43,519 bases of DNA from Magnetococcales bacterium (GTDB lineage Bacteria > Pseudomonadota > Magnetococcia > Magnetococcales > UBA8363), in the NCBI GenBank assembly GCA_015228975.1, contig JADGCN010000016.1:1-43519 (forward strand), in the 5' to 3' direction. Below, piece by piece: positions 12,634 through 30,918 of the stretch (positions are counted from its first letter, which is position 1; each line of letters starts with the position of its first letter). A model generated the notes under the pieces. The model did not search any database. It was not told where the DNA came from and saw only the letters and a list, made by a program, of their open reading frames with translations. Position numbers and translations under genes: made by a program.

Positions 12634-12670
12634 GAGATGACACTCCTGGGTAATGGACCGAGAGCCTTCC

Positions 12671-13522
12671 TCAGGCGAGTTCTGCCGAGGCATTCATGGT
12701 AATTTTTCCGTGGGGCCCGTGGGCTTCCAGTTCGACGATGTCGCCCTTGGGTCGGGCGATCAAGCGAAACGGGTGCAGATCGAACAACGGTGCCCGTCCC
12801 TGAAACGAAAAACCCACCGCCCGCCTGCCGCTATTGGCACGCGCCATTTCCAGGAGCATCAAGGCTGTCAGTGGTCCATGCACCACGAGTCCGGGATAGC
12901 CTTCTTCTTTCATGGCATAAGGCCGATCATAATGGATACGATGGGCGTTGAAAGTCAGGGCGGAAAACCGGAACAACAAAATGGTCGTGGGCGTCACATC
13001 CTTGACCCAAACACCGGGCCCCGGATCGGGATGGGCCGGAATCGGCACCGGGGCGGGTGTTGGCGGGCCATCTTCCTTGTAAACGATATCCTGTTCCTCC
13101 TCGACACACAGCTCATTGTTTTGCCGGATGCGGTATCTCGCCGTCACAAATACCAGATTACCGCTTTTGCCCGATTTTTCCGACACGTTGAGAATTTCCC
13201 CTTCGCGCACCGCGGGCTGGCCGATGATCAAGGGGTGTAGAAACTTCATCCGGGCACCGGCAAACATGCGGCGTGGCAAGGTCACCGGCGGGAAGAAACC
13301 ACCCCGCTTGGGATGCCCGTCGTGGTCGATACTCGACATCGGCGCCTTGGGGAGGAAATGAAACCAATGCCACAAGGGGGGCAAAGGGTCTCCAGCCTTG
13401 AAACGTTCCCCCTCCATGTCCAACATGGCGGCAACACAGTCGGCAACCACAGCGGAGATGGTCTCCTCGCGAACCTCCTGGGATCCGATCCAATCAGTCA
13501 AAGGTTTGTTTTGTTCGCTCAT
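12671..13522 (-). CDS. meh: FAS1-like/HTD2-type hydratase, mesaconyl-C4-CoA hydratase (Meh)-like
   Basis: The 283-aa protein has an N-terminal hot-dog (PPLWHWFHFLP, RRMFAGARMKF, GEILNVSEKSGKSGNLVFVT) and a C-terminal hot-dog with FSALTFNAHRIHYDRPYA and VHGPLTALMLLEM. This matches the HTD2/FAS1-like dehydratase family that includes mesaconyl-C4-CoA hydratase, which makes (S)-citramalyl-CoA. The ATG 13522 start overlaps the stop of the upstream CoA-transferase (TAATG), with GGAG inside that gene; the frame stays open further upstream but that part is antisense shadow. Other members of the family are 3-methylfumaryl-CoA hydratases, so the substrate rests on context. Confidence 0.8.
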   Translation of the reverse strand: MSEQNKPLTDWIGSQEVREETISAVVADCVAAMLDMEGERFKAGDPLPPLWHWFHFLPKAPMSSIDHDGHPKRGGFFPPVTLPRRMFAGARMKFLHPLIIGQPAVREGEILNVSEKSGKSGNLVFVTARYRIRQNNELCVEEEQDIVYKEDGPPTPAPVPIPAHPDPGPGVWVKDVTPTTILLFRFSALTFNAHRIHYDRPYAMKEEGYPGLVVHGPLTALMLLEMARANSGRRAVGFSFQGRAPLFDLHPFRLIARPKGDIVELEAHGPHGKITMNASAELA

Positions 13523-14760
13523 TATGAAATCTCCACTGGTCCCGCGACGATACCGCTGTCGCGCAGGCTTTTGATTTCGTCCGCACTCAGGCCCAGATCC
13601 TTGCCCAAAATTTCGTCGGTATGTTGACCGAGGATCGGGGCCGGTTTGGGAGGCTCCCGGGTATAAGCACCGAATTCGATGGGCGAACCCGGAACCAGGA
13701 AGGAACCGATACCGGGTTGTTCCAACATGGAAAACATGGGGTTTTTGGTGGACACACGCGCATCCTCCTCGACCATCTGCTTGAAGGTGCGATACGGCCC
13801 CCAGCAAACCCCGGTACCCTTGAAGATGGTTTCGATTTCCTGCAAGGTGCGTTGACCACACCATTGGCGAATGGGAACCGAGATTTCATCACTGGCCAGG
13901 AAACGGTCACCTTCCTTCTTGAAATTTTTCCCCAACCGGGTTTCAATTTCCTTGAAGGCATCCGTCAAACCGGTCACCTTGCCCAACTCGGTCCACATGC
14001 GGTCGGTCACCACGACGATATAAAGGCGGCGACCATCCTTGGTTTCATAATCGCTGCCATAGGCACCATACAGATAGTTGCCATAGCCTTTGCGATCCTC
14101 ATGATTGACCTGAACCTCGGAGACGTAGCCCAGATTGGCGGTCATGGCAAAGGCGATATCGGAGAGGGCGATTTTCACCAATTGGCCCTCACCGGTCAGA
14201 CGGCGATGGCGTTCGGCGGCCAATACCGCCAGTGCCAGGTTGATGCCGGCAATGGCATCCCAGGCGGGCAGGACATGATTGATCGGCTTGGCATTGGGAT
14301 TGGCATGGTGATTACCGGTGACGTGGGGGAAACCACACGCGCAATTGATGGTATAATCCACCGCCGAAGTCCCATCGGAACTGCCCAGCAGGTTGACCAT
14401 GATCAAATCGGGCCGATGTTTTTTCAAACTTTCGTAGCTCATCCACCCTTTGGCGGCGGGAAAGTTGGTCAAGAAAATACCATTGCCGGGGCCGGGAGCG
14501 GTAATCAGCTTCGTCAAAAGCTCCTGGGCCTGGGGTTTGCTCGAATCAATGGCCAAAGAACGTTTACCCTTGTTCAATCCAACCCAGTAGAGGCTTTTGC
14601 CGTCTTTGGTAATGGGCCAACGCCGGGAATCCATCCCCCCGGTCAGGGGGTCGAAACGGATGACATCCGCCCCCAATTGACTGAGGGTCATGCCGCTCAA
14701 CGGTGCGGCAACAAACGCTGAAGCCTCAATAATCCGCAATCCTTGCAACACTTTGAACAT
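13522..14760 (-). CDS. mct: Family III (CaiB/BaiF) CoA-transferase, mesaconyl-CoA C1-C4 transferase (Mct)-like
   Basis: The 412-aa protein begins with the family signature (VLQGLRIIEASAFVAAPLSGM, LGADVIRFD) and has the putative nucleophile Asp168 in LPAWDAIAGI, at the position expected for family III enzymes. Mct of Chloroflexus is of similar length and moves CoA within mesaconate from C1 to C4. AAGGAG lies 6 nt before ATG 14760. The stop overlaps the next gene, which is the hydratase that would use its product. Other CaiB/BaiF enzymes use succinyl-CoA with oxalate, carnitine, malate or itaconate, so the assignment leans on the operon. Confidence 0.78.
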   Translation of the reverse strand: MFKVLQGLRIIEASAFVAAPLSGMTLSQLGADVIRFDPLTGGMDSRRWPITKDGKSLYWVGLNKGKRSLAIDSSKPQAQELLTKLITAPGPGNGIFLTNFPAAKGWMSYESLKKHRPDLIMVNLLGSSDGTSAVDYTINCACGFPHVTGNHHANPNAKPINHVLPAWDAIAGINLALAVLAAERHRRLTGEGQLVKIALSDIAFAMTANLGYVSEVQVNHEDRKGYGNYLYGAYGSDYETKDGRRLYIVVVTDRMWTELGKVTGLTDAFKEIETRLGKNFKKEGDRFLASDEISVPIRQWCGQRTLQEIETIFKGTGVCWGPYRTFKQMVEEDARVSTKNPMFSMLEQPGIGSFLVPGSPIEFGAYTREPPKPAPILGQHTDEILGKDLGLSADEIKSLRDSGIVAGPVEIS

Positions 14761-14793
14761 GTTTCACTCCTTGGATTTCAGGATTGATCCGGA

Positions 14794-15843
14794 TTAAAAA
14801 CCGTAGGCGGCGGCCCTCGCGGGATCTTTGGTGGCAACCAGCTTGGCCAGGTCCACGATCACCTTGGCCTGTTTCCAGGTGGCATCATCCTGCATTTTGC
14901 CATCGATCATCACCGCACCCGAACCATCGGGCATGGCTTCCAGAATTTTTTTGGCAAACAAGACTTCTTTAACATCGGGGCTGAACACCCGCTTGGCAAT
15001 GTCAATCTGCGTGGGATGCAAGGTCCAGGCACCGGCACACCCTTGCAGGAAGGCGTTGCGGAATTGGGCTTCACACGCAGCATCATCCTTAAAATCACCA
15101 AACGGACCATAAAACGCACGCAATCCATTGGTCAAACAGGCATCCACCATGCGGGCCACGGTATAATGCCAAAGATCTTGTTGGAAAAAGGCGCGTGGCG
15201 AACCATCGGCGGTCGGGTCGGCCAAAACGCCATAAAAGGGGTGTCCGCCCCCGACGCGGGTCGTTTTCATGCCACGCGAAGCCGCCAAATCGGCGGGACC
15301 CAAGCTCATGCCATGCATCCTGGGGCTTGCCTGGGCTATGTCATTGACATTTTTCACCCCCTGCGCCGTTTCCAGAATGGCGTGGATCAAGATGGGCTTG
15401 TTCACATGATGCTTGGCCTCCAGCAGGGCCAACAGTTGATCGACGAAATGGATATCCCACGGTCCCTCCACCTTGGGGATCATCACCACGTCCAATTTAT
15501 TGCCCACCGCACCGATGATCTCGCTCATGTCATCGAGAAACCAGGGGCTGTTGAGGGCATTGACCCGGGTCCAAAGACCGGTACCCATGGCACGAAAATC
15601 AAAATTGTTCGCCACTTCAATGAATCCCCTGCGCGCCGCCTCTTTGGCTTCGATGGGAATGGCATCTTCCAGGTTACCCAGCAGGACATCGACATTTTTC
15701 GCCATGTCACCCGCTTTGGCGCGCATCTTTTCGTTGTGGGGCGGGAGGAAATGGATGGTCCGCTCCAGGGTGATGGGCAGCTCACGCATGGGTTGGGGGG
15801 CGCCAATGGCGAGGGGCTTGTAAAATGCTGCGGGGGTTTTCAT
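14794..15843 (-). CDS. mcl: Malyl-CoA/beta-methylmalyl-CoA/citramalyl-CoA lyase (Mcl)-like, CitE family
   Basis: A 349-aa HpcH/HpaI-type lyase that closely resembles, from memory, the Chloroflexus Mcl (similar length, same [11 protein letters not shown]-terminus and [12 protein letters not shown]-terminus). Motifs for Mg2+ and CoA binding are visible: [37 protein letters not shown]. Mcl condenses propionyl-CoA or acetyl-CoA with glyoxylate and also cleaves (S)-citramalyl-CoA to acetyl-CoA and pyruvate. ATG 15843 is chosen because GGAG lies 9 nt upstream and conservation begins there; a start ten codons upstream is possible. It is 33 bp ahead of the Mct-like gene and 76 bp behind the second lyase. 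Confidence 0.85.
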
Positions 15844-15919
15844 AGGTTTTTTCTCCAAAAGGGTCATTCCCATCTCTCTTTAAGCGACGGGACAAGTCGT
15901 TATTGATTTATTTTTTCGA

Positions 15920-16903
15920 TCAGGCTTTCTTGGCAGCCGCCAATTCCGCCTTTCTGACAACCGCTTCCGCCTGACGGATGGAAGCGATATCAATCATTTT
16001 GCCATCCAGGCTGACCGCCGCAGCCCCCTGCTTTTCCGCCTGTTCCATGGCCGCAAGGATGCGCCGTGCCTGTTCCATCTCTTTTTCCGATGGTTTGAAC
16101 AAATCGTTGGCCATCTCCACCTGACTGGGATGGATAACCATTTTACCCTCGAATCCCAGTGTTTTGGCCCGTTTGGCCGCCGCCATCCAACCATCGGGAT
16201 CCTTGATGTCGGCGAAGGGACCGTCCACGGGACGCAAACCATTGGCCCGTGCCGCTGCTACAATGCGGGCATGCGGATAATGCCACATGTCCTGCCAATA
16301 GGATGGGCGATGCCCCTGGGCATCGGCGGATCCGAGGATGTGATAGTCGGGATTGGGACCACCAATCATGGTGATTTGCATGTTGGTAGCCGCTGCGTAA
16401 TCGGCGGAACCAAACAAGATGGTTTCATTCCTGGGGGAGGCGGCGGCAATGCTGTCTATGTTTTGCATCCCCAGGGGCGTTTCAATCAGCATTTCAATAC
16501 CGATTCTTTTTTGAATCCCCTTGGCCCGTTCGATCTGGGTCAAGAGCATGTCCACGGCATAGATATCGGCGGCACATCCCACCTTGGGCACCAGGATCAG
16601 GTCCAATTTATGCCCCGCCTGTTCCACCAGATCCACGACATCGCGATACATGTAATGGGTATCCAGACCGTTGATCCTGACCGAAAGGCTCTTGCCACCA
16701 AAATTCAAATCATTGAGGGCGGCAATCACATCTTTGCGCGCCTGCTCCTTGTTATCCGGTGGAACCGAATCCTCCAAATCGAAGAAAATAACATCGGCCT
16801 GACTGCTGGCCGCCTTCTCGATGAAGCGTGGATTGGATCCAGGGACCGCCAGGGTACTGCGGTTCAAGCGTTGTCGGCGCTGGGGTATGGTTGTAAAACT
16901 CAT
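15920..16903 (-). CDS. Second CitE-family lyase, L-malyl-CoA/citramalyl-CoA lyase-like
   Basis: First gene of the operon, 327 aa. Motifs: STLAVPGSNPRFIEKA, FFDLEDSVPP (acidic metal site), RINGLDT, EMLIETPLGMQNI, GSADYAAA and HPSQ. It resembles Mcl1 of alphaproteobacteria more than the Chloroflexus-type Mcl encoded next to it, so the two are not a recent duplication. A split of work is plausible, one lyase condensing glyoxylate and the other cleaving citramalyl-CoA, but sequence alone cannot say which. ATG 16903 follows GGAGGAG with an 8-nt gap; an ATG at 16951 would add 16 non-conserved residues. Confidence 0.8.
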   Translation of the reverse strand: MSFTTIPQRRQRLNRSTLAVPGSNPRFIEKAASSQADVIFFDLEDSVPPDNKEQARKDVIAALNDLNFGGKSLSVRINGLDTHYMYRDVVDLVEQAGHKLDLILVPKVGCAADIYAVDMLLTQIERAKGIQKRIGIEMLIETPLGMQNIDSIAAASPRNETILFGSADYAAATNMQITMIGGPNPDYHILGSADAQGHRPSYWQDMWHYPHARIVAAARANGLRPVDGPFADIKDPDGWMAAAKRAKTLGFEGKMVIHPSQVEMANDLFKPSEKEMEQARRILAAMEQAEKQGAAAVSLDGKMIDIASIRQAEAVVRKAELAAAKKA

Positions 16904-17262
16904 CAGGCGTTCTCCTCCATCCTGGTTGCTCAGTGATACCTTTGATTTCATGTTTTGATAGAATCACATTTCGCGCCAGATTGGACGCTTCTCGCTATCT
17001 CATTATATATCAATAGATTGACATTAAATCAGCCGGATATCCCACCCCCTTGAAGGGGTGTCGCAATTTGCGACACTCCCGATGAATAATAGTGGCTCAT
17101 CATCGTTAACTGCCGGGAATGAATCAACTACCGAGGCGGGCAAACGATGTCGCATGGTAAATAATGCGACACCCCTTTCAAGAATTGGCCGATAAAGTTC
17201 CTGGGTGACGATTGATCGCAGAACGTAGAACGCGTGCAAGAGAGAAGGAAGACGGTATTCCC
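16904..17262 (-). promoter_or_regulatory. Divergent control region between the lyase operon and the sensor kinase
   Basis: This 359-bp region holds no convincing gene. Toward the operon, a TATAAT-like -10 box lies near 17001-17010 on the - strand, without a clear -35. Between 17046 and 17182 there are several dyads built on TGTCGCA/TGCGACA (described separately). The RBS for the kinase (GAAGGAAG) lies at 17244-17251. Confidence 0.4.
17046..17182. promoter_or_regulatory. Dyad cluster with TGTCGCA half-sites, putative operator
   Basis: GTGTCGCAA-T-TTGCGACAC at 17058-17076 is a perfect 9-bp inverted repeat. TGTCGCAT and ATGCGACA at 17148-17155 and 17164-17171 form a second dyad with an 8-nt spacer. 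In addition CTTGAAGGGGTGTCGCA (17049-17065) recurs inverted, with one extra base, at 17165-17182. Four related half-sites in about 125 bp between divergent genes look like binding sites for a dimeric regulator. No regulator gene of an obvious class is adjacent. Confidence 0.5.
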
Positions 17263-21170: not shown

Positions 21171-22529
21171 ATGAAACGCGCTTTTCTTCTTTTTCTGGCT
21201 CTGGCCTTGATACCCGTCACAGCCTGGGCCGAACCCGCCGCAGCGGTCGCAGGTGGGCCGTCCTTGTTTGGTATCCCCCTGGATTTCATCCTTTTCGCCC
21301 TGGTTTTGTTGGGGGTGGCCCTGTTCAGCGAAAACACGCTGCAGGTGGGCCTGATTGGCGCTACGACCATCGTCCTTTATAAAGTCTTTTTTGCCGGTTT
21401 CAAATATGGCACGGGCTTGGCGGGTTTGGGACTGCATTTTCAACACGAATGGGTCACCCTGGCCAACCTGTTTTGCCTGCTCATGGGCTTTGCCTTGTTG
21501 TCCAATCATTTTGAACAAAGCAAGGTTCCCGAGATCCTGCCCCGTTTCATTCCGGGGGGATGGATGGGCGGCTTCGTCCTCTTGGCCATGGTATTTGTTC
21601 TCTCCAGCTTTCTGGATAACATCGCCGCCGCTTTGATCGGTGGTGCCGTCGCCAGGACGGTGTTTCGTGGCAAGGTGCATATCGGTTATCTGGCCGCCAT
21701 CGTCGCCGCGTCCAATGCGGGCGGATCGGGAAGCGTGGTCGGTGATACCACCACCACCATGATGTGGATCGCCGGCATCAGCCCCAGTGCCGTGTTTCAC
21801 GCCTATGCGGGTGCGTTGATCGCCTTGTTCATCTGTGGCATCCCCGCAGCACGGCAACAAGACAAATATTCCCCCATCAGCGTGTCTCATGGCGAATCCG
21901 TCCAGGTTGATGTCGCCCGGGTTGGTCTGGTTGCCTTCATCCTCGTTGTTGCCGTCGTGGTCAACATGGTGGTCAACCTGAAATTTAACGAAATCTCCGA
22001 TACCTTCCCCTTCATTGGCGTTGGTGTCTGGGCTGCCATCCTGGTCTCCATTCCGGTGCGCCAACCCGAATGGAAAATCATGCCGGAAACCTTCAAGGGG
22101 AGCATCTTCCTGCTTTCACTGGTTTTGTGCGCCTCGCTGATGCCCGTGGAAAAGCTCCCCACCGCTTCCTGGCCGGTCGCCATGGGGCTGGGCTACGTTT
22201 CGGCGGTGTTTGACAATATTCCCTTGACGGCGCTGGCCATTAAACAAGGTGGGTACGACTGGGGGGCGCTGGCCTATTCCGTGGGTTTCGGTGGCTCGAT
22301 GATCTGGTTTGGTTCCTCGGCGGGCGTCGCCCTGACCAACATGTTTCCTGAAGCCAAGTCGGTCGGCAAATGGGTCAAGGACGGCTATCATGTGACGATT
22401 GCCTACACCATCGGATTTTTCGTTCTTCTGGCCCTGGTGGGTTGGCACCCGTCCACAGATCGGTATCATTCCGATGGCGGCGCACCGGCGGTACAAAGCC
22501 AGACAACAACACCGGCTTCCGGTCATTGA
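21171..22529 (+). CDS. NhaD-type Na+/H+ antiporter-like membrane protein, copy A
   Basis: A 452-aa member of the ion transporter superfamily. A cleavable-looking leader (MKRAFLLFLALAL to TAWA) is followed by about a dozen membrane helices. Two inverted halves each carry a NhaD-like loop: FLDNIAAAL plus SNAGGSGSVVGDTTTTMMW (about residues 145-200) and FDNIPLTALAIK plus GFGGSMIWFGSSAGVA (about 346-385). NhaD exchanges Na+ or Li+ for H+. It opens a cassette with OadG- and OadB-like genes, which suggests coupling of Na+ flows. A near-identical paralogue is at 25228-26580. A short hydrophilic tail ends the protein. Exact ion or solute is not proven; ArsB or citrate carriers are relatives. Confidence 0.82.
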   Translation: MKRAFLLFLALALIPVTAWAEPAAAVAGGPSLFGIPLDFILFALVLLGVALFSENTLQVGLIGATTIVLYKVFFAGFKYGTGLAGLGLHFQHEWVTLANLFCLLMGFALLSNHFEQSKVPEILPRFIPGGWMGGFVLLAMVFVLSSFLDNIAAALIGGAVARTVFRGKVHIGYLAAIVAASNAGGSGSVVGDTTTTMMWIAGISPSAVFHAYAGALIALFICGIPAARQQDKYSPISVSHGESVQVDVARVGLVAFILVVAVVVNMVVNLKFNEISDTFPFIGVGVWAAILVSIPVRQPEWKIMPETFKGSIFLLSLVLCASLMPVEKLPTASWPVAMGLGYVSAVFDNIPLTALAIKQGGYDWGALAYSVGFGGSMIWFGSSAGVALTNMFPEAKSVGKWVKDGYHVTIAYTIGFFVLLALVGWHPSTDRYHSDGGAPAVQSQTTTPASGH

Positions 22530-22643
22530 AACCTCGGGGTCGTACGTCCATGACCGGTTTCATAATTCCAAACACCGACCTCTCGGGCAATGGGTCCATG
22601 CGGGAAATCAGGTCTATTTTAATGCAAAGCAAGGGAGTCCACT

Positions 22644-22769
22644 ATGTTGCACACGGTGATCATGAAATCTTTATACGCGTATCTTTTGTTGATGGTCATC
22701 TCCTTCTTCGTAGCAGTGGTCATCAAGGTCATCGTTGCCATGTTTGATCAAGCGGCGGAGAAGAAATGA
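22644..22769 (+). CDS. 41-aa single-helix membrane protein, short paralogue of the OadG-like gene
   Basis: A small gene starting at ATG 22644 with GGGAG about 7 nt upstream and ending at TGA 22767-22769. The product has one membrane helix (about residues 10-34) and a charged end (FDQAAEKK). It aligns almost throughout with the first 41 residues of the next gene (MLHxVIMKSLYAYLLL start) but lacks the linker and C-terminal domain. It is present only in copy A. It is either a remnant of an internal duplication or a functional short subunit; the intact frame and good RBS favour expression. Confidence 0.65.
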   Translation: MLHTVIMKSLYAYLLLMVISFFVAVVIKVIVAMFDQAAEKK

Positions 22770-22879
22770 CACCTCAAACGGGAATGTAAGGCATTGTACC
22801 TTGTGGAAACAGCCCGGCTTGATCGGATCACCATGGTGGAATGCCTAAGAAGTTTGGCTTATTTAGTAAAGGAGTTCCA

Positions 22880-23227
22880 ATGTTGCATCAAGTCATCATG
22901 AAATCGTTGTATGCCTACTTATTGCTTGCCGTAATTTCATTTTTTGTAGCCGTTGTCATCAAAATCATCGTCAGCATGTTCGACCGCGCCGCTGATAAAA
23001 ATGAATCGTCGTCCGGGGGCGGCGTTCCGGCCGCATCCACTCCGGTATCATCTCCGGCGTCCGCCAATATCAAAGGCATACCCACCCACCATCTATTGGC
23101 CATTATTTCAGCGGCGCAAATGGTCGCTGGCGGGCGCATCGTCAGAATCGACGAGACCGATGAAAACAGGAGCTGGACCACAATCGGTCGTTCGCAACAC
23201 TTGGCGTCCCACGATGTCCGCCGATGA
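22880..23227 (+). CDS. OadG-like gamma/delta subunit of a Na+-translocating decarboxylase, copy A
   Basis: A 115-aa protein with one N-terminal helix (about 10-34), a Ser/Pro/Ala linker (about 45-65) and a small C-terminal domain: IPTHHLLAIISAAQMVAGGRIVRI then SWTTIGRSQHLASHDVRR. That tail resembles the end of OadG-type and methylmalonyl-CoA decarboxylase delta subunits, which anchor the complex and in OadG bind Zn2+ through His. ATG 22880 follows AAAGGAG with 5 nt; a start 13 codons upstream is not supported. It is 89 bp ahead of the OadB-like gene. No alpha subunit is nearby, so its binding partner is unknown. Confidence 0.72.
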   Translation: MLHQVIMKSLYAYLLLAVISFFVAVVIKIIVSMFDRAADKNESSSGGGVPAASTPVSSPASANIKGIPTHHLLAIISAAQMVAGGRIVRIDETDENRSWTTIGRSQHLASHDVRR

Positions 23228-23316
23228 GCTGCCAACCCGTGGGCAAAATGGATGTTACAAATGGGCCAATCTGATCGAGTCGTATAACGTTACATCGTGT
23301 ACCAGGAGGAGTAGCA

Positions 23317-24558
23317 GTGGACATTAACATATTGGATCTGTTTCAAGGCATCAGTACGCTGGTGTCCTCGTTCCACACCCAGCCAGAGATTGCCTGGGCC
23401 CGTATTTTTCTTATGGGCCTCGGTTGTGTGTTGATTTATCTGGGGCATAAAGGGGTGCTGGAACCCCTGTTGATGGTGCCCATGGGTTTGGGCATGTCGG
23501 CGGTCAATGCTGGTGTGATGTTCGTCCCACCCTCGATGAATCTGCCCCAACAGGGTGACAAAGGTACCCTGTTCCTCAATCCGTTGATTTCCGAGGGTGA
23601 AAAGCTGACCTATATACTCCAGGTCGATTTTTTACAGCCCATTTACATCTTCACCTTCTCCAACGGTTTGATCGCCTGCCTGGTGTTCATGGGGATCGGC
23701 TCCTTGCTGGATGTCGGTTATGTGATGCGGCGCCCGTTTGAGAGCATGTTTCTCGCTGTTTGCGCCGAGCTGGGAACCATCGTCGTCTACCCCCTCGGGG
23801 TCGCTCTCGGCTTGCCCGAAGGAGCCGCAGCCGCAACTTCAACCATTGGTGGCGCTGATGGTCCCATGGTGCTGTTCTCCTCTCTCATGCTGGCCCCGGA
23901 TATCTTCGTCCCCATCACCGTAGTCGCCTACCTCTATCTCGGTTTAACTTACGGTGGCTATCCCTACCTGATCAAATTGCTGGTGCCGAAAAGCATTCGT
24001 GGTACGCCCATGCCCATTGAACCACCTTCCAAGATTTCTCCCGACCAAAAAATGGTGTTCGCTGTCATCACCTGCGTCCTGTTGTGTCTGTTGTTTCCGG
24101 TAGCCGCGCCCCTGTTCCTTTCGGTGTTTTTGGGAGTTTTGGTGCGTGAAGCGGGGCTCAAGGATTTTCATACCCTGTTTTCCAATACCGTGCTGTACGG
24201 TGCCACCTTCTTTTTGGGACTGGTCCTGGGGATTTTGTGTGAAGCGGCCACCATCATGAACCCGGTCGTGTTTCGTTTGCTGGTCCTCGGCGTGACAGCT
24301 TTGACCATCTCGGCCATCGGTGGCATCATCGGCGGTTACATCCTTTATTTCTACTATGGCAAAAAATACAACCCCCTGATTGGTTTGGCAGGGGTTAGCT
24401 GCGTCCCCACCTGTGCCAAGGTGGCGCAAAAAAGCGCCAATGAGGCCAATCCAGAGTGTATGATCCTGCCCCAGTCCCTGGGATCCAATGTCAGCGGCGT
24501 GATCACCACCGCCATCCTCGCCGCCATTCTCATCGCCATGGTGGGACCCATCAAATAA
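23317..24558 (+). CDS. OadB-like beta subunit of a Na+-translocating decarboxylase, copy A
   Basis: A 413-aa polytopic membrane protein of the OadB/GcdB/MadB family, which couples decarboxylation of carboxybiotin to Na+ export. Asp181 in TIGGADGP corresponds to Asp203 of Klebsiella OadB. Tyr207, Asn352, Gly356 and Ser361 match Tyr229, Asn373, Gly377 and Ser382 by spacing. The residue at the Arg389 position is Lys368. An N-terminal extension of about 30 residues and a loop with PPSMNLPQQGDKGT are less typical. GTG 23317 is preceded by AGGAGG. A terminator hairpin follows 55 bp after the stop. Function as a pump needs an alpha subunit and biotin protein, neither of which is here. Confidence 0.85.
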   Translation: MDINILDLFQGISTLVSSFHTQPEIAWARIFLMGLGCVLIYLGHKGVLEPLLMVPMGLGMSAVNAGVMFVPPSMNLPQQGDKGTLFLNPLISEGEKLTYILQVDFLQPIYIFTFSNGLIACLVFMGIGSLLDVGYVMRRPFESMFLAVCAELGTIVVYPLGVALGLPEGAAAATSTIGGADGPMVLFSSLMLAPDIFVPITVVAYLYLGLTYGGYPYLIKLLVPKSIRGTPMPIEPPSKISPDQKMVFAVITCVLLCLLFPVAAPLFLSVFLGVLVREAGLKDFHTLFSNTVLYGATFFLGLVLGILCEAATIMNPVVFRLLVLGVTALTISAIGGIIGGYILYFYYGKKYNPLIGLAGVSCVPTCAKVAQKSANEANPECMILPQSLGSNVSGVITTAILAAILIAMVGPIK

Positions 24559-24612
24559 CGGAAACATTCCTCGATTCAATTCCTCGGATCACCCGTCATC
24601 GGGTGTCCAATC

Positions 24613-24641
24613 AAGGCCGCTCTCACAGCGGCCTTTTTTTT
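24613..24641 (+). terminator. Rho-independent terminator after cassette A
   Basis: AAGGCCGCT-CTCAC-AGCGGCCTT followed by about eight T. It lies 55 bp after the OadB-like stop. A related hairpin ends cassette B. Confidence 0.93.
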
Positions 24642-25227
24642 ATGGTACTCCCCTACGTCCATGCGATCGCCTCCGGGTCAACGATTTTTTCCACATCACT
24701 ATTTTGCAAATTGTGGGCTTCAAAGGATTTTCCGCAGCGTCATCCCTGGAGGACGCGGAAATCCAGAGGATACGAATCCTGAACTACACATTAGAATTGA
24801 TAGAAATAAAGATATCTAATTTTATTATAAATTTTACATAAAAATTCGGCCTGTATACAATCCTATTATAAAACAATATATTAAAAAAATAGGGCCTGGA
24901 TGTTATCGATACCTTTCTGGACCGCCCCGGTGGCGGGATAGGAACACAATCCAGGCGTTTATAATATTTTTATTATTATAATTCAATATCTTAGACTCAT
25001 AATTCAGAGGGGATACCCCTGACGGTGCATTGAAGATAAGGTAAATTTACTGTACAGTGCGCGCAAGAATTGGGGTAACCAGACGGAGCTCCCTTTGATT
25101 TGTTATTAAAATAGTATCAAGAAACTTATGTCTCCATTATGTGTGGTACCTATCCGGTATAGTGCCATTATTCAGTATAAAATCAACATGTTGTTGTTAT
25201 TCTTCCCCTCAACCAAGGTAGCTTGAC
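24642..25227. promoter_or_regulatory. AT-rich intergenic island before cassette B
   Basis: A 586-bp region without a supported gene between the terminator of cassette A and the antiporter of cassette B. It is AT-rich between about 24785 and 25000 like the island before cassette A, but the two regions do not align except for the last about 30 bp (CTCAACCAAGGTAGCTTGAC). So the duplication boundary lies close to the start codon, and the two copies may be controlled differently. Confidence 0.5.
24894..24956 (+). other. Candidate structured RNA element upstream of cassette B
   Basis: GCCTGGAT (24894-24901) pairs with ATCCAGGC (24949-24956). Inside, TATC (24904-24907) can pair with GATA (24937-24940) and CCGCC (24922-24926) with GGCGG (24932-24936), leaving a 14-nt bulge on the 5' side. 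This GC-rich 63-nt island sits in very AT-rich DNA 270 bp before the antiporter start, and an AT-rich tail follows. It may be a leader structure, a small RNA or a leftover hairpin. No known riboswitch consensus was recognised. Confidence 0.35.
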
Positions 25228-26580
25228 ATGAAACGCGCTTTCCTTCTTTTCCTGGCTTTGGCCTTGATACCCGTCACAGCCTGGGCTGAACCCGCCGCAG
25301 CGGTTGCAGCAGGACCGTCCATACTCGGTATCCCCCTGGATTTCATCCTTTTCGCCCTGGTTTTGTTGGGAGTGGCGCTGTTCAGCGAAAACACGCTGCA
25401 AGTGGGTCTGATCGGGGCAACGACCATCGTCCTTTATAAAGTCTTTTTTGCCGGCTTCAAGCATGGCACGGGCTTGGCGGGGTTGGGACTGCACTTTCAA
25501 CATGAATGGGTCACTTTGGCCAATCTGTTTTGCCTGCTCATGGGCTTCGCCCTACTCTCCAATCATTTCGAGCACAGCAAAGTCCCCGATATTTTGCCCC
25601 GCTTCATCCCCGGGGGTTGGAAGGGTGGCTTCGTCCTGTTATGCATGGTCTTCGTGCTTTCCAGCTTTCTGGATAACATCGCCGCCGCTTTGATCGGCGG
25701 TGCCATCGCCAGAACGGTGTTTCGCGGCAAGGTGCATATCGGTTATCTCGCCGGCATCGTCGCCGCTTCCAACGCGGGAGGATCGGGAAGCGTGGTCGGG
25801 GACACCACCACCACCATGATGTGGATTGCCGGCATCAGCCCCGGTGCCGTGTTTCACGCCTATGCCGGTGCGTTGATCGCTTTGTTCATCTGCGGCATCC
25901 CCGCCGCCATGCAACAGGATAAATATTCCCCCATCAGCGTTTCCCATGGCGAAGTTGTCAAAGTCGATGTCGTTCGCGTCGCCCTGGTCGCCTTCATCCT
26001 GGTGGTGGCAATCCTGGTCAATATGGTGGTCAACCTGAAATTCAACGAAATTTCCGATACCTTCCCCTTTATTGGCGTCGGCGTCTGGGCAGCCTTGCTG
26101 GTCTCCATCCCCCTACGCCAACCTGAGTGGAAAATCATTCCGGAAACCTTCAAGGGAAGTATCTTTCTTCTCTCCCTTGTATTATGCGCCTCCTTGATGC
26201 CCGTGGAAAAACTCCCCCCCGCTTCCTGGCCGGTGGCCATGGGATTGGGGTACGTCTCCGCCGTGTTCGACAACATCCCATTGACCGCCCTGGCCATCAA
26301 ACAAGGGGGGTACGACTGGGGGGCGCTGGCCTATTCCGTGGGCTTCGGTGGCTCGATGATCTGGTTCGGCTCCTCGGCGGGCGTCGCTCTGACCAACATG
26401 TTTCCCGAGGCCAAGTCGGTCGGCAAATGGGTCAAGGACGGCTATCATGTGACGATCGCCTACACCATCGGATTTTTCGTTCTCCTGGCCATCATGGGTT
26501 GGCACCCTTCCTCAGACCGTTACCATACAGGTACCCCAACGGTGCAAACGCATATGTCCACGCCATCCACAAACCACTGA
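25228..26580 (+). CDS. NhaD-type Na+/H+ antiporter-like membrane protein, copy B
   Basis: A 450-aa paralogue of the protein at 21171-22529, differing at scattered conservative positions and in the C-terminal tail. It keeps the leader peptide, both DN motifs (FLDNIAAAL, FDNIPLTAL) and the Gly/Thr-rich loop SNAGGSGSVVGDTTTT. Nucleotide changes are mainly silent third-position changes, which points to selection on both copies. The RBS region is identical in both. It is followed by a 257-bp gap with its own possible promoter before the OadG-like gene, whereas copy A has the extra 41-aa gene there. Confidence 0.82.
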   Translation: MKRAFLLFLALALIPVTAWAEPAAAVAAGPSILGIPLDFILFALVLLGVALFSENTLQVGLIGATTIVLYKVFFAGFKHGTGLAGLGLHFQHEWVTLANLFCLLMGFALLSNHFEHSKVPDILPRFIPGGWKGGFVLLCMVFVLSSFLDNIAAALIGGAIARTVFRGKVHIGYLAGIVAASNAGGSGSVVGDTTTTMMWIAGISPGAVFHAYAGALIALFICGIPAAMQQDKYSPISVSHGEVVKVDVVRVALVAFILVVAILVNMVVNLKFNEISDTFPFIGVGVWAALLVSIPLRQPEWKIIPETFKGSIFLLSLVLCASLMPVEKLPPASWPVAMGLGYVSAVFDNIPLTALAIKQGGYDWGALAYSVGFGGSMIWFGSSAGVALTNMFPEAKSVGKWVKDGYHVTIAYTIGFFVLLAIMGWHPSSDRYHTGTPTVQTHMSTPSTNH

Positions 26581-26691
26581 CCGTGTCGGGAGAGAGGGGG
26601 GAGCCTTTTTTCTCGGGTGGATTCATGATGGAAAATTAATACCATACAGTTGGAATGGGCGATGCGATAGGGTCTATGTTAATGCTTTCAA

Positions 26692-26720
26692 TTGACTTGT
26701 TGTGTCAATACGGGTAGAAA
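26692..26720 (+). promoter_or_regulatory. Candidate sigma70 promoter for the copy B OadG-OadB pair
   Basis: TTGACT (26692-26697), a 17-bp spacer and TAGAAA (26715-26720), about 118 bp before the OadG-like start. TTGAC and GTCAA around it also form a small dyad. Evidence is box similarity only. Confidence 0.4.
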
Positions 26721-26837
26721 GTTTCCGTAAATTCCAAAATCGGATGCCAAATACTGTCTGGAGGGGTGACGGATTGCCTCGATTGGTCAAGACGTTGTGA
26801 TGCCCGAAAGGGAAAGCCATTTAGTAAAGGAGTTCCA

Positions 26838-27179
26838 ATGCTTCATCAAGTTATCATGAAATCGTTGTATGCCTATATGCTGCTGGCAATTATCGCTTTT
26901 TTTGTGGCAGTGGTCATTAAGGTCATCGTCAGTCTTTTCAACAAGGCCGCTGACAAAAGTGAACCGGTATCTGGAGCATCCGTTCAAGCGGTCGCGGCTT
27001 CAGCACCCGCACCCGCCATCCTCAAAGGAATACCCGCTCATCACTTGGTAGCCATCGTCGCCGCCGCACAAACGGTTGCCGGGGGGCGCGTTGTCAGAAT
27101 CGACGAAGGCGAGGAAAATAAAAATTGGACCACGATCGGTCGCTCGCAACACTTGTCGTCCCACGACATTCGCCGCTGA
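26838..27179 (+). CDS. OadG-like gamma/delta subunit, copy B
   Basis: A 113-aa paralogue of the protein at 22880-23227. It has the same single helix, a variable Ala/Pro/Val linker and a conserved C-terminal domain with IPAHHLVAIVAAAQTVAGGR and SWTTIGRS-like NWTTIGRSQHLSSHDIRR. The linker has diverged much more than the two ends, as expected if it is only a tether. ATG 26838 follows AAAGGAG exactly as in copy A. The 96-bp gap to the OadB-like gene holds a palindrome that is also present, less perfect, in copy A. Confidence 0.72.
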   Translation: MLHQVIMKSLYAYMLLAIIAFFVAVVIKVIVSLFNKAADKSEPVSGASVQAVAASAPAPAILKGIPAHHLVAIVAAAQTVAGGRVVRIDEGEENKNWTTIGRSQHLSSHDIRR

Positions 27180-27275
27180 TCCGCTTTAGATTCATCATCA
27201 AGATTGTGCCTGGAATTCGGTAAGATCAGGCAGTCGCATCATGTAACGTTACATCGAGTACCGGGAGGAGTTGCT

Positions 27276-28520
27276 GTGGATATTAACATGTTGGATCTGT
27301 TTCAAGGCATCAGCACGCTGGTGTCCTCGTTCCAAACCCAGCCGGAAATCGCCTGGGCCCGTATTTTCCTCATGGGTTTGGGTTGCGTTCTGATCTATCT
27401 GGGTCACAAAGGGGTGCTGGAACCCTTGCTGATGGTGCCCATGGGGTTGGGTATGTCGGCAGTGAACGCCGGCGTCATGTTCGTCCCGCCCTCGATGAAT
27501 CTGCCCCAGCAGGGTGACAAGGGGACCCTGTTCCTCAACCCGTTGATTTCTGAGGGTGAAAAGCTGACCTATATACTCCAGGTGGACTTTTTGCAGCCCA
27601 TTTACATCTTCACCTTCTCCAACGGTTTGATCGCCTGCTTGGTGTTCATGGGGATCGGCTCCTTGTTGGATGTTGGTTATGTGATGCGGCGCCCGTTTGA
27701 GAGCATGTTTCTCGCCGTTTGCGCCGAGCTGGGCACCATCATCGTCTACCCCCTTGGCGTTGCTATCGGTCTGCCCGAAGGCGCCGCAGCCGCCACCTCA
27801 ACCATCGGTGGTGCCGACGGTCCCATGGTGCTGTTCTCCTCTCTCATGCTGGCCCCGGATATTTTCGTCCCCATCACGGTCGTGGCCTACCTCTATCTAG
27901 GATTGACTTATGGTGGCTACCCCTATCTGATCAAGCTGCTGGTTCCGAAAAGCATCCGTGGCACACCCATGCCCATTGAACCCGCTTCCAATATTACCCC
28001 CGGCCAAAAAATGGTGTTCGCCATCATCACCTGTATCCTTTTGTGTCTGTTGTTTCCGGTAGCCGCGCCCCTGTTCCTTTCGGTGTTCTTGGGAGTTGTG
28101 ATTCGCGAGGCCGGTCTCAAAGATTTTCAAACACTGTTTTCCAATACCGTACTCTACAGCGCCACCTTCTTTTTGGGGCTAATCCTGGGCATCTTGTGTG
28201 AAGCCGCCACCATCATGAACCCGGTTGTGTTTCGCTTGTTGATCCTTGGTATCACGGCGCTGACCATCTCAGCCATCGGGGGCATTATCGGTGGGTACAT
28301 CCTCTACTTTTACTATGGCAAAAAATACAATCCACTGATCGGTTTGGCCGGTGTCAGTTGCGTCCCGACCTGTGCCAAGGTGGCACAGAAAAGTGCCAAC
28401 AGTGCCAATCCCGAGTGCATGATCCTGCCCCAAGCGCTGGGATCCAATGTCAGTGGGGTCATCACATCCGCCATCCTGGCCGCCATTCTCATCGCCATGG
28501 TTGGACCCCTCAAAGGCTAG
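27276..28520 (+). CDS. OadB-like beta subunit, copy B
   Basis: A 414-aa paralogue of the protein at 23317-24558, nearly identical in protein sequence. It keeps the GGADGP motif, the Asn-Pro-Leu-Ile-Gly...Ser segment and the Lys at the usual Arg389 position (SCVPTCAKV). GTG 27276 is preceded by GGGAGGAG; an in-frame upstream start would add 24 residues with no counterpart in copy A. A terminator follows 35 bp after the stop. The strong conservation of both copies suggests that both are used, perhaps under different conditions. Confidence 0.85.
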   Translation: MDINMLDLFQGISTLVSSFQTQPEIAWARIFLMGLGCVLIYLGHKGVLEPLLMVPMGLGMSAVNAGVMFVPPSMNLPQQGDKGTLFLNPLISEGEKLTYILQVDFLQPIYIFTFSNGLIACLVFMGIGSLLDVGYVMRRPFESMFLAVCAELGTIIVYPLGVAIGLPEGAAAATSTIGGADGPMVLFSSLMLAPDIFVPITVVAYLYLGLTYGGYPYLIKLLVPKSIRGTPMPIEPASNITPGQKMVFAIITCILLCLLFPVAAPLFLSVFLGVVIREAGLKDFQTLFSNTVLYSATFFLGLILGILCEAATIMNPVVFRLLILGITALTISAIGGIIGGYILYFYYGKKYNPLIGLAGVSCVPTCAKVAQKSANSANPECMILPQALGSNVSGVITSAILAAILIAMVGPLKG

Positions 28521-28554
28521 CAATCCTCGTATCCATTCCAGTTCCTGGATCGTG

Positions 28555-28580
28555 AAAAGGGCCGCGCAAGCGGCCTTTTC
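28555..28580 (+). terminator. Rho-independent terminator after cassette B
   Basis: GGCCGC-GCAA-GCGGCC, flanked by AAAA and TTTT, 39 bp after the stop. The following bases CCTTT weaken the T-run slightly. Confidence 0.85.
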
Positions 28581-28922
28581 CTTTACTCCGCTTTCCCCAC
28601 CCTCATCACAAACGCCATGGTGTGAGCGATCATTGCCACACCAGAACCTGTAGCGTTCACCACAAAAAAATTTTCCTCTGACACCCGCTTACCCCATCCC
28701 CGCCTGTACCAGCCCCCGTTTTTTTATTGAAGAATCCCATATGTAGCAAAAAAAATCGACACCTCTGGACTATTTTACGAATTGTTGAGAAAATGCTGCC
28801 GTATTGATAAACTTTGACTTGATTTTTTACTGTATTAAGCAGATGTAAACGTGGTTAATATTTTTTTTATGCATAAATTTTAAGTAAAGAAACCGTAAAT
28901 ATTGTCAATTGAGGAGGAAACA

Positions 28923-29084
28923 ATGGTTCCTGATACAGTTACTGGGGCACTTATCCTGAGCTTTATCGATTTTATATTAAGCTTCTTCATGATCGCCGGA
29001 ATTGGCATCGTCCTGTCGTGGTTTCCGATCCTCAATCGTTATTTCAAGGTCGATGAGGCCAAACTGCGGAAAGGACACCCCTGA
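28923..29084 (+). CDS. 53-aa single-helix membrane protein in front of the third OadB
   Basis: I do not recognise a named family. ATG 28923 has a very strong Shine-Dalgarno, GAGGAGG, 5 nt upstream. The protein has one long hydrophobic stretch (about residues 8-37) and a charged end (YFKVDEAKLRKGHP). Its place before an OadB gene, like the OadG-like genes of cassettes A and B, suggests a small gamma-type partner, but the C-terminal domain of those proteins is missing. A gap of 130 bp, with a ten-G tract, separates it from the OadB gene. Confidence 0.65.
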   Translation: MVPDTVTGALILSFIDFILSFFMIAGIGIVLSWFPILNRYFKVDEAKLRKGHP

Positions 29085-29214
29085 CGGTACGTTTCAGGTA
29101 ACCGGGATTACCGGCTGGTACGTACAAGGGGGGGGGGATAAAGGCTTGTAAAACCCATAACAATGCGCCATGTGACGGCATGAACCGATAAGATACTCTC
29201 GTAAAGGTGATAAA

Positions 29215-30363
29215 ATGACGGCTGATTTAAGTTTCATCGACATGACCAATACGTTTTTCCTGGCCATGTACAAACAGACAGGATTTGAAAGTTTATGGTG
29301 GGGCAACACGGTCATGATGGGCGTGGGATGCATCCTGATCTACCTGGGAGTGGCCAAGCACTTTGAACCGTTGCTGTTGGTCTCCATCGGTTTTGCCTGC
29401 GTCATCGCCAATGTTCCCGGATCCGACCTGATCTCGGAGAATGGTCTGTTCACCCTGGCCCACAGAGGCTTGGAATTGTTGATCGTACCGCCGCTGATCT
29501 TTTTTGGTGTCGGAGCCATGACCGACTTCGGTCCCATGATCGCCAATCCCAAGCTGGTCCTATTGGGGGCGGCGGCTCATTTGGGTATTTTTGTCGCCCT
29601 CATCATCGCTAAAATGATCGGCTTTACCATCCAAGAGGCGGGAGCCATCGGCATCATTGGCGGTGCCGATGGTCCCATGGCTATCTTCGTAACCATGAAA
29701 CTGGCCCCCCACCTGTTGCCGCAAATCTCGGTGGCCGCCTATTCCTACATGGCATTGATGCCCCTCATCCAACCCCCGGTCATGAAACTCCTCACCACCA
29801 AGGAAGAACGCATGATTCGCATGGAATCCATGCGTCCAGTGACCCGGTTGGAAAAGATTGTATTTCCCATCGTCATCGGCATTATCGTCAATCTGTTCTT
29901 CCCACCCGTTGCCCCGCTGATCACCATGCTCATGTTGGGCAACCTGTTCAAAGAAGTCCTCGTCGTCGGTCGCTTGGCCAAGTCGGCTGCCAACGAAATC
30001 ATGAACGTCATCATCGTTGTCTTGACCCTGGCCATCGGTTCCACCATGAACGCCGACTCCTTTCTGACGATCAAAACGTTGGAAATTATCTTCCTGGGGC
30101 TATTGGCTTTCGTCGTTGGCACCGGCTCCGGGGTGGTGGGGGCTAAGGTGATGAACCTGTTCCTAAAGGTTAAAATTAACCCACTCCTGGGATCGGCGGG
30201 TATTGCCTCGGTTCCCATCGCCGCCAAGGTTACCCATTCCGTGGCCATCCAGGATGACCCGGAAAATTACCTGATCTATCACGCCATGGGACCCAACTTG
30301 GCAGGCGTGTTCGGTACTGCGATCTCCGGGGGTATCATGCTGGCTTTGTTGGGGGTGCGCTGA
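29215..30363 (+). CDS. Third OadB-like beta subunit (more canonical)
   Basis: A 382-aa polytopic membrane protein of the OadB/GcdB family. GIIGGADGPMAIF places Asp152 at the Asp203 position of Klebsiella OadB; Tyr178, Asn322 and Gly326 fit Tyr229, Asn373 and Gly377. The Ser382 position is Ala331 with Ser332 next to it, and the Arg389 position is Lys338. Compared with cassettes A and B it lacks the extra loop near residues 70-90 and is clearly diverged, so it is an older paralogue rather than part of the recent duplication. AAAGGTG lies about 5 nt before ATG 29215. A strong terminator follows. Confidence 0.86.
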   Translation: MTADLSFIDMTNTFFLAMYKQTGFESLWWGNTVMMGVGCILIYLGVAKHFEPLLLVSIGFACVIANVPGSDLISENGLFTLAHRGLELLIVPPLIFFGVGAMTDFGPMIANPKLVLLGAAAHLGIFVALIIAKMIGFTIQEAGAIGIIGGADGPMAIFVTMKLAPHLLPQISVAAYSYMALMPLIQPPVMKLLTTKEERMIRMESMRPVTRLEKIVFPIVIGIIVNLFFPPVAPLITMLMLGNLFKEVLVVGRLAKSAANEIMNVIIVVLTLAIGSTMNADSFLTIKTLEIIFLGLLAFVVGTGSGVVGAKVMNLFLKVKINPLLGSAGIASVPIAAKVTHSVAIQDDPENYLIYHAMGPNLAGVFGTAISGGIMLALLGVR

Positions 30364-30428: not shown

Positions 30429-30627
30429 ATATCAAGAGGATCCTGCCTTTTTGACGTGTTATGCGATTTACTTGCGTCGAAGGAGCCCTGGATGGTATTG
30501 GAAGAATGCACCAGCAAATCCCCATCGGACCCTGGTAGACAACGCCCAGGGGTAATTTTTCCTTTCGGGGTCACTCTATGGTAGGATATGGTAGTACCTG
30601 TGGCTAGCTGTGATAGGAGAACACGAC
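30429..30627. promoter_or_regulatory. Intergenic region before the toxin-antitoxin pair
   Basis: No gene is supported. CCCTGG and CCAGGG (about 30530-30553) form a hairpin followed by TAATTTTT. Just before the antitoxin, ATGGTA is repeated (TATGGTAGGATATGGTAGTACC), which could be an operator for the RHH protein. AGGAG lies 8 nt before the GTG start. Confidence 0.35.
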
Positions 30628-30918
30628 GTGGCGACAACCGCTGCAAAACCGATGTCCGTCAAAATTGACCCTGATACCCGTGCTCGGGTTGAGAGTCTTG
30701 CTGAAGCCCGCCACCGCTCCACACATTGGATAATGCGCGAGGCTATCAGCCAATACGTTGATCGCGAAGAAAAACGTGAGGCATTCCGACAAGAGGCCAT
30801 CAAGGCATGGGAAGACTACCAGGAAACGGGTCTGCATGCGACCGCAGCAGAGGTTGATGCGTGGCTTGCCAGTTGGGGGACTGACGACGAACTACCAGCA
30901 CCTGCATGTCACAAGTAA
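30628..30918 (+). CDS. Ribbon-helix-helix (CopG/ParD-type) antitoxin
   Basis: A 96-aa protein. Residues about 8-50 form a beta-helix-helix (KPMSVKIDPDTRARVESLAEARHRSTHWIMREAI is the region), typical of RHH DNA-binding antitoxins. The acidic C-terminal part (WEDYQETG, VDAWLASWGTDDE) would wrap the toxin. GTG 30628 is chosen because AGGAG lies 8 nt upstream; a GTG six codons earlier has none. The gene overlaps the toxin gene by 13 bp. It most likely represses its own promoter. Confidence 0.85.
   Translation: MATTAAKPMSVKIDPDTRARVESLAEARHRSTHWIMREAISQYVDREEKREAFRQEAIKAWEDYQETGLHATAAEVDAWLASWGTDDELPAPACHK

Follow-up and report, generated by a model that had tools for sequence, protein, structure and literature searches.

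Closest described systems

The closest described counterparts of the proteins considered here are the Na+-translocating oxaloacetate decarboxylase OadGAB (Salmonella beta subunit, 6iva/6iww), the methylmalonyl-CoA decarboxylases (Mmd) encoded by mmdA-D-C-B operons, the Na+ malonate decarboxylase with its MadB subunit (TIGR03136) and the antiporter NhaD. The mmdA-D-C-B operon is widespread, occurring in Accumulibacter, Competibacter, Defluviicoccus, Rhodoferax and Propionivibrio. In an excerpt of PMC9041414, Na+ efflux by methylmalonyl-CoA decarboxylase is proposed for glycogen-accumulating organisms, and such decarboxylation-linked efflux is described as not found in Accumulibacter. Despite this statement, the mmd operon is present in the Accumulibacter loci analyzed here, and transcription in A. 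phosphatis type II has been reported (PMC12604563). Among the matches listed from open-licence PMC full text, none describes a pairing of antiporter and decarboxylase, and none relevant was found for a decarboxylase, the 3-hydroxypropionate (3HP) pathway or acetyl-CoA carboxylase in Magnetococcales.

The window, that is the whole stretch of 43,519 nucleotides analyzed here, comes from a genome that is 76% complete and belongs to the same genus as the Magnetococcales MAG HA3dbin1. Compared with the Mmd systems of Accumulibacter, Propionivibrio, Defluviicoccus and Competibacter, orthologues of the alpha subunit, OadG-like protein, biotin carrier and beta subunit are all recognizable, both within this genus and widely beyond it, whereas in the window the beta and OadG-like (G) genes stand apart from the soluble operon, in two copies, each pair downstream of an NhaD-like antiporter gene. 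What is new here is this beta-antiporter pairing, its duplication and B3, a third class of beta subunit in which the Na+-ligand serine is missing from its usual place.

Organization and duplication of the cassettes

The earlier note had described two tandem antiporter/OadG-like/OadB-family cassettes and, after them, a third beta subunit accompanied by a 53-aa membrane protein, and all of these reading frames are present, as follows.

21171..22529, + strand: NhaD-like antiporter 1, 452 aa (reading frame, weak NCBIfam NhaD matches, profile alignment)
22644..22769, + strand: mini-OadG, 41 aa, with only the membrane helix of an OadG-like protein; also in the sister genome G005
22880..23227, + strand: OadG-like subunit G1, 115 aa with the corrected start (ORF-list start 22841), whose C-terminal W-x(3-4)-R/K-...-H tail recurs in operon D proteins
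23317..24558, + strand: beta subunit B1, 413 aa, GTG start, MadB-like OAD_beta (Pfam/NCBIfam matches, residue check)
24613..24635, + strand: terminator-like hairpin with a T run, after B1
25228..26580, + strand: NhaD-like antiporter 2, 450 aa (reading frame, NCBIfam matches, comparison with antiporter 1)
26838..27179, + strand: OadG-like subunit G2, 113 aa with the corrected start (ORF-list start 26766)
27276..28520, + strand: beta subunit B2, 414 aa from GTG 27276, which matches the B1 start; MadB-like OAD_beta
28923..29084, + strand: s3, 53-aa single-helix membrane protein, ATG 28923; beside B3 in four genomes (own, G005, G002, G030)
29215..30363, + strand: beta subunit B3, 382 aa, TIGR01109 class, Ala at the Ser382 position

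The probable start of G1 is placed at 22880, the sister genome having an in-frame stop immediately before that point, and that of G2 at 26838 by homology; both corrected N-termini read MLHQVIMKSL. The hairpin after B1 is the top entry in a list of terminator-like sites whose total (13 seen vs 13.5 by chance) is not above chance.

The antiporters are identical at 415/452 aligned positions, B1 and B2 at 392/413 and G1 and G2 at 87/121, and on these identities the two cassettes are a tandem duplication. The dN/dS values are low both for B1-B2 (0.027/0.585) and for the antiporter pair (0.043/0.603), which speaks for purifying selection on each, and the same cassette arrangement occurs in a separate assembly of another species, G005. 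The truncated mini-OadG of cassette 1 and the faster divergence of the OadG copies relative to B could point to redundant or decaying copies, relocated and duplicated to no functional effect; such decay is unlikely given the low dN/dS for NhaD, B1, B2 and B3 and an arrangement held in two species.

Family membership and functional residues

All three beta subunits pass the Pfam OAD_beta cut-off of 31.6 bits (B1 340, B2 337, B3 468). The best-scoring NCBIfam model for B1 and B2 is MadB TIGR03136, yet both stay below its cut-off (488.6 and 487.9 bits vs 596.9), and both also miss that of TIGR01109 (181 and 173 bits vs 191). B1 and B2 differ from the beta subunits of Mmd in their preference for the MadB over the OadB/MmdB-type model, and from the malonate enzyme in that the genome's own alpha subunit is an unsplit MmdA-like chain. 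The OadG-like proteins score 14.6 and 12 bits with Pfam OAD_gamma PF04277, below the cut-off of 27. The tail that G1 and G2 share with the D proteins of mmd operons occurs in 66/67 G-like matches from the 80 top-ranking named loci among 573 relatives, a pattern framed after the tails had been viewed, a stricter form of which gives 30/67.

The antiporter-like proteins match NhaD weakly, at 62 and 64 bits with TIGR00775 (cut-off 577.1) and 42 and 48 bits with NF038006 (cut-off 80). A profile of 19 sequences, 17 of them used by the program, was aligned by hhalign to the NhaD of a relative, itself passing NF038006 at 582 bits and failing TIGR00775 at 416 bits; the alignment spans 281 columns with a probability of 97%, and motifs around the DN, GD and DNIP sites are common to both, although identity is only 29%. 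AlphaFold2 modelling on 5 sequences gave a mean pLDDT of 31.8, too low for use, and comparing the antiporter alignment with PDB profiles returned nothing meaningful. By their low identity and scores below both cut-offs, the window antiporters belong to an NhaD-like family of their own, which is frequent in the order and has predicted Na+/H+ exchange.

With the roles of individual beta positions taken from an excerpt of PMC7274780, B1 retains 8/10 checked positions (equivalents of Glu40, Asp203, Tyr229, Asn311, Asn373, Gly377, Ser382 and Asn412), the Arg304 position being a gap and Ser419 being replaced by Thr. The three Na+-site residues Asp203, Ser382 and Asn412 are all among those kept, and the same motifs are found in B2. 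These proteins are like OadGAB in sequence family and most essential residues. B3, which falls within the OadB class, keeps the Asp203 and Asn412 equivalents, whereas Ser382 is replaced by Ala with a Ser adjacent to it, and Ala occupies this position in 4/4 B3-class sequences; judged by these positions, B3 is a third beta class without the Na+-ligand serine at its usual place. It further differs from OadGAB in having a 53-aa partner in place of OadG.

The probable soluble module and its operons in relatives

No alpha subunit or biotin carrier had been seen in the window, and indeed the OAD-alpha, biotin-carrier and carboxyltransferase matches of the genome all lie on other contigs. One of these encodes, in a row, an mmdA-like protein of 517 aa, an OadG-like protein of 108 aa and a biotin carrier of 128 aa, followed by an epimerase gene, and no beta gene is present in this operon. 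A lone full-length oadA lies on a third contig; unlike in OadGAB, there is no adjacent OadA in the window. The only OAD_beta genes found in the genome are the three in the window, and G005 (97% complete) likewise has three, all in the same cluster. These findings support the first of two alternatives in the earlier note, a shared cytoplasmic part encoded elsewhere.

In five congeners, the same beta gene, 83–87% identical, ends an mmdA-D-C-B operon. The operon is intact in G001, G003, G004 and G006 (B 83–85% identical to B1), and G007 has D-C-B with a broken mmdA, an intact mmdA lying on another contig. The operon also occurs in G011, G020, G022 and G026, with a beta 69% identical. Overall, this beta class was found in 12 genomes, and in nine of them the gene stands beside mmdA or its remnant, the exceptions being the window's own genome, G005 and G002. 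In the first two of these the beta gene is missing from the mmdA operon, and beta and its OadG partner sit, duplicated, behind an NhaD-like gene; the third sister, G002 (74% complete), also has a beta/OadG cassette behind such a gene, and mmdA was not detected in it. The antiporter-OadG-OadB order does recur in these two sisters: among the 80 top-ranking named loci from 573 relatives, which overlap the relatives sample in G005, G002 and 5 more, only the same two (2/80) have an NhaD-like gene, whereas 52 are exactly mmdA-G-mmdC-B and 75 carry mmdA, mmdC or both within the stretch retrieved. The tree places the G005/G002 copies together with B1 and B2 in a single clade (100/97), which is nested within that of the genus (100/99). 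The D proteins of the congener operons align to G1 and G2 from a common start to the end (N-terminus read for G001), and G and B therefore appear to have moved together.

Gene content, orthology to the congener operons, retention of key residues and selection on both copies together argue that B1/B2 and G1/G2 are very probably the integral membrane part of a Na+-translocating acyl-CoA decarboxylase that depends on biotin and whose soluble operon, with mmdA, a variant OadG-like gene and mmdC, lies on another contig and has lost its beta. The earlier note held that a split of this kind, if repeated in relatives, would denote an ordinary decarboxylase; with the split repeated in G005 and the same beta at the operon end in congeners, the enzyme is most likely of that kind. 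We infer its direction and substrate, the most likely reaction being methylmalonyl-CoA to propionyl-CoA. Since B1 and B2 miss the MadB and TIGR01109 cut-offs and the MmdA-like protein misses that of MmdA TIGR01117 (761.9 bits vs 998.8), the substrate is assigned only by resemblance. Methylmalonyl-CoA mutase is present in 7/8 genomes of the genus and was not found in the window's own, 76% complete genome.

In the proposed mechanism, MmdA would load the biotin of MmdC with the carboxyl group of the acyl-CoA, the soluble part would be docked by the G tail, and B would decarboxylate carboxybiotin with predicted coupling to Na+ export. The NhaD-like antiporter encoded upstream could close the Na+ circuit by interconverting the Na+ gradient built up by export and a proton gradient, in either direction. 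The two cassettes may be membrane modules that stand in for each other or raise the dosage, both serving one soluble module. B3, accompanied by s3, is a further beta of the OadB class, with the lone OadA, or MmdA/C, as candidate partner; among the four B3-class genomes, OadA is found in 2/4 and mmdA-D-C in 3/4. A step limited to one small clade of uncultured Magnetococcales would thus have taken the membrane half of a primary Na+ pump out of its enzyme operon, joined it to an antiporter gene and duplicated it, so that one soluble enzyme can serve several membrane modules.

The second alternative in the earlier note was that these OadB proteins are new Na+-coupled carriers. That B1/B2 or B3 act as biotin-independent transporters or Na+ channels, for example carrying bicarbonate or an organic acid with Na+, would suit genes separate from the enzyme operon and paired with an antiporter; it is nevertheless highly improbable, given the functional positions kept in B1 and B2, their OadG partner with its conserved tail and an mmdA operon that would otherwise be without a beta. 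An orphan-carrier role of B1/B2 was rejected in view of that beta-less operon and the congener operons, whereas B3, with Ala at Ser382 and s3 in place of an OadG partner, may fit such a role.

OadA was also considered as the dedicated partner of B1/B2 and is not favoured, being found in 0/4 genomes of family f5 (G011, G022, G026, G030), 3/4 of them with a complete operon that includes this beta class. It is a possible additional partner, as suggested by the Propionivibrio locus L173, where an oadA-like gene follows a beta of the B1/B2 class. A separate pyruvate-carboxylase biotin carboxylase for OadA was rejected: each genus genome has one biotin-carboxylase match (two in G005), in frames of 563–683 aa, six of the nine lying near a pccB-class gene and two near a mutase gene.

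Direction of coupling

The module might instead run mainly in reverse. In this case the NhaD-like antiporter would use the proton gradient to expel Na+, and the Na+ returning through B1/B2 would drive ATP-free carboxylation, first of biotin and from there of acetyl-CoA or propionyl-CoA. We regard this as doubtful, although an antiporter beside a Na+ machine would make a closed Na+ circuit. By its title, a 1984 study by Dimroth and Hilpert reportedly names acetyl-CoA and pyruvate carboxylation by reversal, which was counted in favour. A full-length AccA match is absent from 8/8 genus genomes, 5/8 of them at least 95% complete, and present in 48/61 genomes searched; G022, 99% complete, likewise lacks AccA and has the mmd operon. 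The positions of eight of the nine biotin-carboxylase genes near pccB-class or mutase genes were also counted in favour, as were the propionyl-CoA-carboxylase BT domain of the window genome's own biotin carboxylase and the position, which we take to be the chain-length position, carrying Asp in PccB and Leu in MmdA. However, five congeners without AccA also lack the antiporter link, malonyl-CoA could come from PccAB, and G011, G020 and G026 have both the mmd operon and AccA. Na+-driven carboxylation is supported for Halomonas elongata Oad in an excerpt of PMC7545133, where this direction is nonetheless very unfavourable without a sodium gradient, and the sister HA3dbin1 is called freshwater in an excerpt of PMC6783814. 

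It is very unlikely that mmdA-D-C with the antiporter-linked B/G cassettes forms a Na+-driven acyl-CoA carboxylase making malonyl-CoA and/or methylmalonyl-CoA without ATP in a genus without detectable AccA. If it did, the antiporter would charge the Na+ gradient and B would spend it on carboxylating biotin, the products then feeding fatty-acid synthesis and carbon assimilation. The relocated cassettes make the direction of coupling testable in a lineage of unclear carbon fixation; citrate-lyase subunits were not found in five MAGs of the group including HA3dbin1, with incompleteness as a possible cause, according to an excerpt of PMC6783814.

Neighbouring 3HP-type cluster

A further group of genes lies upstream of the cassettes.

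10690..16951, - strand: CoA-transferase, FAS1-DH-region (mesaconyl-C4-CoA hydratase-like), 2-methylfumaryl-CoA-isomerase-like and two HpcH/HpaI lyases

This cluster presumably resembles the glyoxylate/propionyl-CoA part of the 3-hydroxypropionate bi-cycle, the isomerase model (543 bits vs 725) and the FAS1-DH match (21.3 vs 22) both being below their cut-offs. A link between it and the decarboxylase was considered and rejected: of the seven genomes of the genus in which both were found, only the window's own and G005 have the mct-like gene on the same contig as beta, and the closeness of the two is therefore not conserved. The mct-like gene is found in 7/8 genus genomes at 542–557 bits, all under the cut-off of 725, and at a comparable score in 0/40 other genomes of the order; by these scores it is genus-restricted within the order sample, and one relative outside the order reaches 605 bits.

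Gene arrangement and the missing soluble half

The beta-subunit genes B1 and B2 of the window probably belong to an ordinary enzyme in an unusual gene arrangement. Judged from sequence, it is most likely a methylmalonyl-CoA decarboxylase that pumps Na+ and whose genes are split between separate sites. The layout first described was borne out, with an nhaD-like antiporter gene, an OadG-like gene and a beta gene repeated in tandem (G1-B1, G2-B2), followed by genes for a 53-aa membrane protein (s3) and a third beta subunit (B3). The start codons of the two OadG-like genes were corrected by inference, and B2 starts at GTG 27276. A truncated 41-aa OadG copy, also found in the sister genome, lies between nhaD1 and G1, and downstream of B1 comes a hairpin that resembles a terminator and has a long stretch of T; the total of terminator-like sites (13 vs 13.5 expected) is not above chance. 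The two cassettes share 92% (NhaD), 95% (beta) and 72% (OadG) identity, with low dN/dS.

A search of the whole genome (3.75 Mb in 234 contigs, 75.9% complete; the window is contig C77) detected three OAD_beta genes, all inside the window, and matches to the OadA domain, carboxyltransferase and biotin carrier on other contigs. Contig C22 encodes in a row an mmdA-like carboxyltransferase (TIGR01117, 762 bits, under the cut-off of 999), a 108-aa OadG-like protein (D) and a biotin carrier (mmdC), then an epimerase; no beta gene was found in this mmdA-D-C operon. Contig C179 carries a complete OadA with a biotin domain (TIGR01108, 833 bits vs a cut-off of 756.5), isolated as judged from the translations of its neighbours.

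Methylmalonyl-CoA is suggested as the substrate by the likeness of MmdA to transcarboxylase 12S (best PDB match, 645 bits; next a propionyl-CoA carboxylase beta, 642), by methylmalonyl-CoA mutase in the genus (7/8 genomes; not found in the 75.9% complete genome of the window) and by published discussion of methylmalonyl-CoA decarboxylation for organisms that carry this operon (PMC9041414 and PMC12604563), the former describing Accumulibacter as without this pathway. The NhaD-like antiporter would close a Na+ circuit with the decarboxylase, in either direction.

Distribution in relatives and history of the split

In a survey of this genome and 60 relatives, OAD_beta was present in 37/61 genomes, OadA-type domains in 46/61 and Carboxyl_trans in 59/61. 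The B1/B2 class (69–98% identical to B1) occurred in 12 genomes, in nine of which the beta lies behind mmdA-D-C, counting congener G007 with an mmdA remnant there. The window's genome and congener G005 (97% complete) have mmdA-D-C without beta, their betas sitting in antiporter cassettes; congener G002 (74% complete) has a single cassette, and mmdA was not found in it. Together, the beta-less operon on C22, the same split in G005 and the position of the beta behind mmdA-D-C in 9/12 genomes support the earlier note's proposal that the soluble part is encoded elsewhere, and its alternative, a new role as Na+-coupled carriers, is not needed for B1 and B2. G007 represents a second, separate split of the operon, with the mmdA remnant ahead of D-C-B (contig C125, 7061-7430, locus L135) and an intact mmdA on another contig. 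In relative G015, mmdA and a biotin carrier have no adjacent beta (contig C25, locus L240), and the one beta detected in that genome, an OadB, lies close to OadA; it looks as though two soluble enzymes shared a single membrane part.

The beta tree groups B1 and B2 with the two copies of G005 and the single one of G002 in one clade (support 100/97) inside the genus (100/99). G1 and G2 can be aligned with the D proteins of congeners all the way from a common start to the C-terminal tail; the D protein remaining in the C22 operon differs at its N-terminus. These data are most simply explained by a joint move of G and B to a place behind an nhaD-like gene, in an ancestor shared by this genome, G005 and G002, and by a duplication of the cassette once G002 had diverged; an earlier duplication with one copy lost from G002 would also fit.

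Outside this genome, the antiporter-OadG-OadB order was seen in G005 and G002: among the best NhaD-like matches of 30 genomes (about 1.5 kb per side where the contig allows; four are distant NhaDs, 23–26% identical), three loci have G and B beside the antiporter gene and 27 do not. Neither G nor B occurs in the 14-kb stretch around this genome's own third NhaD-like copy, or in wider stretches around two of these 27 loci, those of congeners G001 and G006. A scan of named genomes considered the best 80 loci of 573 relatives; seven of the 80 match contigs of the relatives survey, so that the two overlap. With counts approximate because contig ends cut some stretches, 52 of these best 80 show the exact mmdA-G-mmdC-B order, 75 have mmdA and/or mmdC anywhere in the stretch, and two (G005 and G002 again) have an NhaD-like gene. 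Within the same 80, G-B occurs without mmdA or mmdC at L165, L168 and L219 and with divergent mmdA-mmdC at L199 and L208, so G-B modules seem to have split from A-C in other lineages too; at L173, an oadA-like gene follows the beta.

Ion-binding residues and the B3 class

Ten positions were compared with the solved OadB, using functional roles from PMC7274780. B1 and B3 each keep 8/10: both have Thr for Ser419, Arg304 falls in a gap in B1, and Ser382 is Ala in B3, a replacement reported in that paper to abolish Na+ binding. The resulting GIASVP motif is present in all four B3-class genomes (this one, G005, G002 and relative G030) and absent from all other betas of the fetched loci whose motif was read, reading having failed at three examined loci with divergent betas. 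A serine lies one position beyond the Ala382 site in B3 and may or may not compensate for the lost Ser382. The s3-B3 pair occupies 28923-30363 of the window (see also L144 and L145) and in G030 follows the transhydrogenase gene pntB.

Propionyl-CoA and the direction of the reaction

A further gene group lies in the window:

10690-16951, genes for a CoA-transferase, a mesaconyl-C4-CoA hydratase-like protein, a 2-methylfumaryl-CoA-isomerase-like (mct-like) protein and two proteins like CitE/malyl-CoA lyase, a set similar to the half of the 3-hydroxypropionate bi-cycle in which glyoxylate is assimilated

In that cycle, such genes serve to join propionyl-CoA and glyoxylate. The mct-like gene is confined to genus g1 among 48 genomes of the order searched, and together they make a use for propionyl-CoA plausible; the closeness of the cluster to the decarboxylase genes is not conserved.

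The module might also run in reverse, as Na+-driven carboxylation. This is not fanciful, since PMC7545133 reports an anaplerotic flux contribution of the Halomonas elongata Oad at high salt. Full-length AccA was matched in 48/61 genomes and not found in any of the eight of genus g1 (G000-G007), nor in G022, G030, G044, G046 and G047; the carboxyltransferase matches of the genus are pccB class and mmdA only. PccAB is a simpler source of malonyl-CoA than a reversed decarboxylase, which leaves the reverse reading low odds. Fatty-acid synthesis genes, including fabD and fabF, lie at 596-3970 of the window, in this genus without a full-length AccA match.

Other features of the window

In one reading frame (8004-9383), a nuclease domain of the TatD family is joined to a domain of the radical SAM type. 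A 1140-aa protein (31258-34680) with MFS, acyltransferase and AMP-binding domains is like a fused LplT-Aas. The small gene pair at 30610-31199, encoding a ribbon-helix-helix protein (RHH_1) and a ParE-family toxin, is likely a toxin-antitoxin pair. A short dispersed repeat at 19753-19956, 24661-24819 and 35920-36183 translates as VIPAKAGIQ / WIPAFAGMT or similar, and loci L012 and L147 gave similar readings.
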